Source: an uncultured Prochlorococcus sp. (GTDB lineage: Bacteria; Cyanobacteriota; Cyanobacteriia; PCC-6307; Cyanobiaceae). Taken from it: 64,000 bases of DNA. The position numbers were made by a program, and so were the translations under genes. The stretch lies in contig CACJUL010000005.1 in NCBI GenBank assembly GCA_902596585.1, positions 1 to 64,000 of the forward strand. The letters are read 5' to 3'. Below the pieces are notes generated by a model. It saw nothing but the letters and a program-made list of their open reading frames with translations, ran no database searches and had not been told where the DNA came from. Positions 31,192 to 33,788 of the stretch are shown piece after piece; position 1 is the stretch's first letter; each line of letters starts with the position of its first letter.

Positions 31192-32295
31192 ATGGTGTTG
31201 TTTAATAAAATCAAGAATAAACTTCGTTTCAATTACAGAAAAAAAAGATGGCCAGGTTTAATAGAGGCTTATAAACAATATCTTCCAGTTACAAATGATA
31301 CTCCTATTATCTCACTAAATGAAGGAAACACACCACTAATTTTTAGTGACTCAATTAGCAAATTAATTGGAAATGGAACAAAGGTTTTTTTAAAATATGA
31401 TGGTCTGAATCCCACAGGTTCTTTTAAGGATCGTGGTATGACTATGGCTATCAGCAAGGCAAAAGAAAATGGCTGTAAAGCTGTAATTTGTGCCAGCACT
31501 GGAAACACTTCCGCTGCAGCCGCTGCCTATGCCTCCAGAGGAGGATTAAAACCATATGTTTTAATTCCAGAAGGTTTTGTTGCGCAAGGAAAACTTGCAC
31601 AGGCTTTAATGTATGGCGCTGAAATAATATCAATTAATGGAAATTTTGATAAAGCTTTAGAAATTGTAAGAGAATTATCTTCTGAACATCCCATAGAACT
31701 TGTTAATTCTGTTAATCCGTATCGCATTCAAGGACAAAAAACAGCAGCTTTTGAAATTGTTGATGACTTAGGTATTGCGCCTGATTGGCTTTGTATTCCA
31801 ATGGGAAATGCAGGAAACATAACTGCTTATTGGTTAGGATTTAAAGAATATTCAAAAATAAAAAGAAATTTAAAATTACCAGTAATGATGGGTTTTCAAT
31901 CAGAAGGGTCTGCTCCGTTAGTACAAAATATAATAGTTAAAGAGCCAGAGACAATTGCTACAGCTATAAGAATTGGAAATCCTGTAAATAGGGAAAAAGC
32001 AAAAAAAGTAAAAAAAGAAAGTAAAGGTGACTTTCAGTCAGTTACAGATGAAGAGATAGTACATGCTTACAAAATCTTGGCTAAAGAAGGAGTATTTTGT
32101 GAACCTGCAAGTGCAGCTTCTGTTGCAGGACTTATAAAAAATAAAAATAGGATTCAAAAAGATTCAACTATTGTTTGTGTTCTTACTGGAAATGGCTTAA
32201 AAGATCCTGATTGCGCTATTAAAAATAATGATGCTATTTTTAGAAAAAATATTGAGCCTTCTTTAACAAATATCACTAAAATCCTAGGATATTAA
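31192..32295 (+). CDS. thrC: Threonine synthase
   Basis: [62 protein letters not shown]. Confidence 0.95.
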
Positions 32296-32315: not shown

Positions 32316-32324
32316 TGTGGAAAT
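32316..32324 (-). promoter_or_regulatory. DnaA-box-like 9-mer (ATTTCCACA on minus strand)
   Basis: Plus strand TGTGGAAAT; close to cyanobacterial TTTTCCACA. Confidence 0.55.
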
Positions 32325-32345
32325 CCAATAAAAACCAAAAATACT

Positions 32346-32354
32346 TGTTGATAA
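32346..32354 (-). promoter_or_regulatory. Degenerate DnaA-box-like 9-mer (TTATCAACA on minus strand)
   Basis: Plus strand TGTTGATAA; one mismatch to TTATCCACA. Confidence 0.4.
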
Positions 32355-32488
32355 TATTTTAAAAACTTTTTTAATTTGTTAATTAAATTTAAATTTTTCA
32401 AAAGAAAAAGGGATTATTTAACAAATAGTCAATTTTTCCCACTTATTTATATCTCTTTAAGCCTAGTAATTAAGCCAGTAAAGTTAAA

Positions 32489-32553
32489 ATTTCCACAGTT
32501 TCCACAACAACTACTACTACTAAATTTTTTAAATATTTAATTAATAATTAAAT
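32489..32553 (+). other. Putative oriC core: two tandem DnaA boxes, DnaA-trio-like CTA array, AT-rich unwinding element
   Basis: ATTTCCACA (32489-32497) abutting GTTTCCACA (32498-32506), ACAA, CTACTACTACTA (32511-32522), AATTTTTTAAAT, then inverted repeat ATTTAATT-AAT-AATTAAAT (32535-32553); lies between thrC and dnaN. Confidence 0.7.
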
Positions 32554-32630
32554 TAGAAGAAAGTAAAAAAAACTTATTGAATTTAATTAACGAAAAAAGT
32601 ATATTGAATATATCAAAAAATCAAATTCCA

Positions 32631-33788
32631 ATGGAGATTATTTGTAATCAAAATGAGTTGAATAATGCTATTCAATTAGTTAACAAAGCAGTTGCCACAA
32701 GACCAACTCATCCAATTCTTGCAAATATACTTTTAACAGCTGATCAAGGAACAAATAAGATTAGTTTGACAGGATTTGATCTGAATTTAGGGATTCAAAC
32801 TTCTTTTGATGGCACTGTTAAAAATAGTGGAGCTATCACAATCCCTTCAAAACTTTTATCTGAAATAGTAAATAAACTTCCAAATGAAACACCTGTTTCA
32901 CTAGATGTAGATGAGAATTCAGATAATATTTTAATTAAAAGTGATAGAGGTTCTTTTAATCTCAAAGGCATACCCTCTGATGATTATCCTAACTTGCCAT
33001 TTGTTGAAAGTGGTACGTCTTTAAATATTGATCCTAATTCTTTTTTGAAAGCTTTGAAATCTACTATTTTTGCTAGTAGTAATGATGATTCAAAACAATT
33101 ACTTACGGGTGTGAATTTTACTTTCAAACAAAACTATTTAGAGTCTGCTTCTACAGATGGTCATAGATTGGCTGTTTCGTTAATTGATAAAGAGGAAAAT
33201 GTTGAAAATAACGAGAGTTTAAATTCAAATGAAAGTGATTTATCTGTAACTATTCCAACTAGATCATTGAGAGAAATCGAAAAATTTGTCACTCTAAAAA
33301 GCTTAGAAAATTCAATAAAGCTTTTTTATGATAAAGGTCAACTCGTTTTTATTTCTTCTAATCAAATAATTACTACAAGAACCCTTGAAGGAAATTATCC
33401 TAATTATTCACAGTTAATCCCAGATTCTTTCTCAAAAATTTTAAATTTTAATACAAAAAAGTTAATTGACGCTCTAGAAAGAATTGCTGTTTTAGCAGAT
33501 CAGCAGAGTAGTGTTGTCAAAATTAAACTAGATAGCACGGATTTAGCTTTAATAAGTGCAGACGCACAAGATATCGGAAATGCACATGAATCAATACCTG
33601 TATCTTATTCTGGAGAGGATTTTGATATTGCTTTTAATGTTAGATACCTTCTAGAGGGATTAAAAGTTATTTCTTCTCAAAATGTTTTGTTGAAGTGTAA
33701 TCTTGCAACTACTCCAGCTGTCCTTGTCCCAGAAGATAATCTTAATTCTTTTACTTATTTAGTTATGCCTGTTCAAGTTCGTTCCTAA
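32631..33788 (+). CDS. dnaN: DNA polymerase III beta subunit (sliding clamp)
   Basis: MEIICNQNELNNAIQLVNKAVATRPTHPILANIL...LTGFDLNLGI...ASTDGHRLAV...YLVMPVQVRS. ATG 32631 preferred over upstream TTG 32577. Confidence 0.96.
   Translation: MEIICNQNELNNAIQLVNKAVATRPTHPILANILLTADQGTNKISLTGFDLNLGIQTSFDGTVKNSGAITIPSKLLSEIVNKLPNETPVSLDVDENSDNILIKSDRGSFNLKGIPSDDYPNLPFVESGTSLNIDPNSFLKALKSTIFASSNDDSKQLLTGVNFTFKQNYLESASTDGHRLAVSLIDKEENVENNESLNSNESDLSVTIPTRSLREIEKFVTLKSLENSIKLFYDKGQLVFISSNQIITTRTLEGNYPNYSQLIPDSFSKILNFNTKKLIDALERIAVLADQQSSVVKIKLDSTDLALISADAQDIGNAHESIPVSYSGEDFDIAFNVRYLLEGLKVISSQNVLLKCNLATTPAVLVPEDNLNSFTYLVMPVQVRS

Follow-up and report, generated by a model that had tools for sequence, protein, structure and literature searches.

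The closest described counterparts of the element examined here are the basal unwinding systems (BUS) of two bacterial origins and a predicted origin in Prochlorococcus itself. The BUS of Bacillus subtilis oriC combines DnaA-boxes 6/7 with DnaA-trios (EMBO J 2019, PMC6669920; structure 8BTG, PMC10721633), and in Bacillus, cytosine alone can replace the middle adenine of a trio because the amino groups of both bases meet Asn187 (PMC10721633). For Synechococcus elongatus, opening of the BUS by the species' own DnaA has been shown in vitro, and the accompanying survey of origins, from the same group as the Bacillus work on the middle base, searched for a box followed, after a spacer of no more than 16 bp, by three or more 3'-NAN-5' trios, with 13 bp as the commonest spacer; it required a middle adenine, and its authors suspected that the 15% of origins with no match include deviant trios and expected trios to go when dependence on DnaA goes (PMC8287927). 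Prochlorococcus origins have been placed between thrC and dnaN on the basis of skew, gene neighbours and DnaA boxes, so that this location is not new, although the accessible part of that account does not describe a trio array (PMC2836286).

The thrC–dnaN intergenic region

We analyzed a 64-kb stretch of DNA (hereafter, the window) from an uncultured Prochlorococcus sp., in which 335 bp of intergenic DNA, 81% A+T, separate the thrC stop (32295) from the dnaN ATG (32631). As in bacterial origins, a cluster of boxes, here four DnaA-box-like sites and one eroded site, lies beside a replication gene. The features, in window coordinates, are as follows:

31192..32295, + strand: thrC, threonine synthase (PALP family, Pfam PF00291), upstream flank of the putative origin; synteny in PMC2836286
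32316..32324, − strand: distal DnaA box in reverse orientation, TGTGGAAAT on + and ATTTCCACA on −; conservation 0.976 in 28 aligned genus members
32346..32354, − strand: second distal DnaA-box-like site, TGTTGATAA on + and TTATCAACA on −; conservation 0.869
32435..32443, + strand: eroded forward box TTTCCCACT, a weak site seen in alignment rows
32489..32497, + strand: DnaA box 1 of the putative BUS, ATTTCCACA, from sequence and genus conservation
32498..32506, + strand: DnaA box 2 of the putative BUS, GTTTCCACA, abutting box 1, from sequence and genus conservation
32507..32510, + strand: spacer ACAA, constant in length at 4 nt, free in sequence
32511..32522, − strand: four DnaA-trios, CTA x4 on + and 3'-GAT-5' on −; 98% identity in the genus and a characteristic substitution pattern
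32523..32575, no strand: A/T-rich stretch, presumed extension site of the opened duplex; composition kept, sequence not; contains the palindrome 32535–32553
32577..32605, + strand: likely dnaN promoter TTGAAT-17-TATATT, consensus-like; conservation about 0.85 over 32576–32609
32631..33788, + strand: dnaN, DNA polymerase III sliding clamp, 385 aa, with all three clamp domains (Pfam PF00712, PF02767, PF02768)

The first-pass annotation had located the boxes, spacer, trios and inverted repeat exactly to the base. The window boxes deviate by 1–2 bases from the cyanobacterial consensus TTTTCCACA. Between the nearer box and the four 3'-GAT-5' trios lie 4 nt, and between the upstream box and the trios 13 nt (9 + 4); the adjoining duplex at 32523–32575 is nearly all A/T, as in a BUS. 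The element is thus a member of the known BUS kind at an already published origin locus. It shares with the B. subtilis BUS the tandem boxes, the short spacer, the 3'-GAT-5' trios on the corresponding strand with respect to the boxes and the DnaA pocket residues, but differs from it in that the boxes abut, the spacer is A/T, the four trios are regular, and dnaN, not dnaA, is adjacent. Like the S. elongatus BUS (PMC8287927), it is cyanobacterial and near dnaN, although it belongs to another species and is known from sequence, whereas DnaA-dependent opening was shown in vitro for S. elongatus. Two properties that the first-pass annotation singled out as distinctive proved ordinary. The trio array, described as unusually regular, is matched by near-perfect CTA arrays in most of the sampled cyanobacteria, and the 13 nt that separate it from the upstream box are the most frequent spacing in the published survey (PMC8287927); the absence of a GC-rich cluster between boxes and trios reflects a spacer that has merely drifted toward A/T, being 75% G+C in sister genera.

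Position of the probable origin

The genome that contains the window is a draft, and skew was measured in a complete relative, G015 (1,657,990 bp, 72% of the sequence read), which we take to be strain MED4. Its raw cumulative GC skew was shallow, with the maximum near 720 kb and the minimum about 53 kb from dnaN; we attribute this displacement to a block 40–20 kb upstream, in which almost all genes lie on one strand and which distorts the curve. Skew restricted to third codon positions (GC3), followed over 120 kb on either side, traced a clean V that bottomed out 4.3 kb from the record start, which lies beside dnaN. The skew minimum expected of a bacterial oriC is therefore found here by GC3, with raw skew giving an approximate position only. 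The first-pass proposal that this is oriC, for which a GC-skew minimum at the locus was the suggested check, is accordingly backed by the GC3 turn in G015 together with the conserved, phased box–trio array. We hold it very probable that the thrC–dnaN stretch is oriC of this high-light Prochlorococcus, with 32489–32522 as its predicted BUS.

Alternatively, boxes and triplets could serve dnaN as an operator or leader that responds to DnaA, with replication starting elsewhere, given that the element sits 108 bp upstream of dnaN with the promoter-like TTGAAT-17-TATATT in between. However, an operator would not require triplets phased on a single strand and always 4 nt from the boxes, the turn in GC3 skew falls at this very place, and published work puts the origin here, which together make this arrangement very improbable.

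Loose clusters of DnaA boxes (at most one mismatch) do not mark the G015 origin, as three other places in that genome hold five such boxes within 350 bp. Separately, at 617355–617396 in this MED4-like genome, far from the origin, three DnaA-box-like 9-mers in the same orientation occur within about 42 bp, possibly a regulatory or titration site.

Conservation and the connection to DnaA

In all 30 genomes compared within the genus, one of them the window's own, the region upstream of dnaN carries the pair of abutting 9-mers, then exactly 4 nt of spacer and the four triplets, in register. One of these records (L025) begins inside the first box and fits the layout by eye; it was left out of the substitution counts. 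Across the remaining 29 rows of four trios, the first base was substituted 8 times, the middle base once (L031, third trio) and the third base never. When 28 complete intergenic stretches were aligned, conservation was highest at the distal reverse box (32316), which scored above every other 9-mer region, and in the trios, both BUS boxes and the -35 portion of the likely dnaN promoter, with about 0.58 elsewhere. At the second distal site (32346–32354), most relatives carry TGTTGAAAA, and at 32435–32443 about half of the aligned relatives are close to TTTTCCAC- (A, C or T last), the rest being degenerate.

The DnaA of the window's own genome can be aligned nearly end to end with the Bacillus protein in structure 8BTG (E = 1e-123). 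Its residues E197, N201, I204, I207, R216 and E242 correspond to Bacillus E183, N187, I190, I193, R202 and E228, which hold the captured bases in that structure, and R278 aligns with the arginine finger position, so that the element is accompanied by a cognate DnaA with an intact ssDNA-binding motif and arginine finger. We infer the same working mode as in Bacillus, with DnaA binding, opening and firing at this element. DnaA domain IV would sit on the two tandem boxes, and protomers would spread from the boxes toward dnaN, each AAA+ domain engaging one trio (3'-GAT-5') of the − strand; the strands would then be peeled apart into the A/T-rich stretch, leading to helicase loading. The distal reverse boxes would probably aid assembly or regulation of the complex.

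Beyond the genus, we covered 59 family genomes from 27 genera plus G076, from its own genus, as well as 80 named family loci (with species overlap) and six more. Pattern searches with mismatches were too noisy at this range, the reversed control yielding as many matches, and the regions upstream of dnaN were read directly instead. The layout of two boxes, 4 nt and four trios was found in fixed register at all family loci examined except that of G076, in which respect the rows scoring 14–16 of 24, unconvincing by score alone, were accepted because their position is constant and they agree with their relatives, and two rows (L294 and the record-truncated L172) were positioned by eye. The conservation and phase of boxes and trios on which the first-pass annotation had staked its proposal are thus retained both in the genus and across the family. 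In a side observation, one record titled as a Bifidobacterium breve MAG (L300) carries a cyanobacterial dnaN and BUS, indicating a mislabelled or contaminated bin.

The exception coincides with the loss of dnaA. Of 111 family genomes, 110 retain the gene; it is absent only from G076 (L317; confirmed with PF00308), the sole family genome without a BUS. The order ABC1-kinase, thrC, dnaN is kept in G076, and the box–trio array was not found in its thrC–dnaN gap of about 150 bp of intact sequence. The G076 assembly, of about 20 contigs, has a completeness of 95%, so a dnaA gene left out of it is conceivable, although the BUS interval is intact. In a class-wide sample, the DnaA box-binding domain was absent from three genomes (G362, G368 and G374), and the BUS pattern was found in none of these three vs 145 of the 193 others, a contrast with a chance probability of about 0.017 if relatedness and some off-origin matches are ignored. 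The BUS thus appears to disappear where DnaA disappears, with one clean natural case and three supporting genomes in agreement with the published expectation. One of the three, G362, is a single-contig cyanobacterium of 3.8 Mb that also shows no dnaN match to the picocyanobacterial profile.

These data also bear on whether the element could be a relic, its sequence persisting while initiation has become DnaA-independent as in Synechocystis. DnaA-independence has arisen several times in cyanobacteria (PMC7198777), and the skew is shallow; but the strong purifying selection on trios and boxes, the retention of dnaA throughout nearly the whole family and the missing BUS in the single genome without it leave such a history with very little probability.

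Uniqueness and chance expectation

The pattern TTTCCACA + gap + (CTA)3 occurs once in the window's own genome (a 1.17-Mb draft, 72%-complete), with 0 matches for the control. The full pattern was absent from 300 first-order Markov simulations of 64 kb, in which a box followed by 0–16 nt and four CTN turned up at a rate of 0.003 per 64 kb. A/T-rich intergenic DNA commonly contains simple repeats, and a chance trinucleotide repeat near ordinary boxes could be imagined on that account, but the absence of the full pattern from the simulations and the constant phase and copy number across the family refute it, leaving it a negligible prospect.

The inverted repeat ATTTAATT-AAT-AATTAAAT (32535–32553), which the first-pass annotation had listed with the element, fared differently. 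By simulation, 33% of intergenic stretches with the same composition would hold an inverted repeat with 8-bp arms, 24 such repeats occur across the whole window, and the conservation of this one is 0.56 vs an intergenic background of 0.58. With chance-level frequency and background-level conservation, we rejected the palindrome as a functional part.

Two further sequences recur off the origin. The 18-mer TCCCCAACCTCTACTACT recurs away from dnaN in unrelated cyanobacteria (e.g., G055:C1:69340, G257:C1:1986763 and G122:C1:1826855), probably as part of a conserved gene, and the near-identical CCACAGTAACTAATAGTACTA is found off the origin in several Prochlorococcus genomes, at G004:C1:299985 and G220:C1:300884 (about 300 kb in these two), G204:C3:4519 and G071:C2:72822.

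Trio spelling across the family

The family comparison is the new part of this work: trios appear to alternate between A and C at the middle base, as the published amino-group recognition model predicts. On the trio strand, the middle base in the 59 rows was A in 169 cases, C in 62, G in 4 and T in 1, while the first base was G in 234 of 236 and the third was T in 174, C in 57, A in 4 and G in 1. In the 80 named loci, the middle base was A in 198 cases, C in 118, T in 3 and G in 1. The excess of C was not built in, because the template gave C, G and T equal (no) credit. C-centred trios (top strand CGA/CGG) recur in fixed register in Synechococcus/Cyanobium-type genera (L144–L203 and L237–L316).

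On the DnaN tree, the middle base of trios 2–4 requires at least 35 changes (13 + 8 + 14), about 30 of which are A/C, because only five tips carry G or T. The chance of such an A/C excess is about 2e-10, a rough figure that gives C a one-in-three probability as the target. Mutation bias alone explains this poorly: A to G would be a transition and would raise G+C equally, and at the third trio base the T-to-C transition is indeed seen. The picocyanobacterial A/C series looks like the natural deviant trios suspected among the origins without a match in the BUS survey. It is likely that, in family origins, the middle trio base is A or C (3'-GAT/GCT/GCC-5') and almost never G or T, in keeping with the Bacillus amino-group code; that searches demanding three consecutive 3'-NAN-5' motifs would overlook many of these origins or score them too low; and that one clade with an altered DnaA pocket may read its trios differently.

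A DnaA pocket change in the high-light-I-like clade

That clade, which we presume to be high-light-I-like from sequence grouping, has Ser at the equivalent of Asn187 and Lys at that of Arg202 in all seven genomes checked (L212 and L344–L349), with the remaining base contacts kept. Asn and Arg are both present in the DnaA of the window's genome, as they are in its clade and in the other genera checked. High-light-I-like trios are still mostly CTA; a deviant trio occurs in 3 of the 7 arrays, and the sole middle-base G in the genus (L031, genome G010) falls in this clade. The Ser/Lys swap may be linked to a changed reading of the trios, which we regard as a lead, not a result.

Implications

The window element is a clean and compact example of a BUS, from a photosynthetic organism that ranks among the most abundant. 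The family data bear on two questions that the BUS authors had raised in print, namely, whether natural trios without a middle adenine exist and whether trios are lost along with DnaA (PMC8287927), and answer yes to deviant trios at the level of sequence; to the loss of trios, the answer from G076 and the three class-wide genomes is also yes. The pocket swap in high-light-I-like DnaA offers a natural experiment on the recognition code, and the comparison across the family makes that code a testable natural series.
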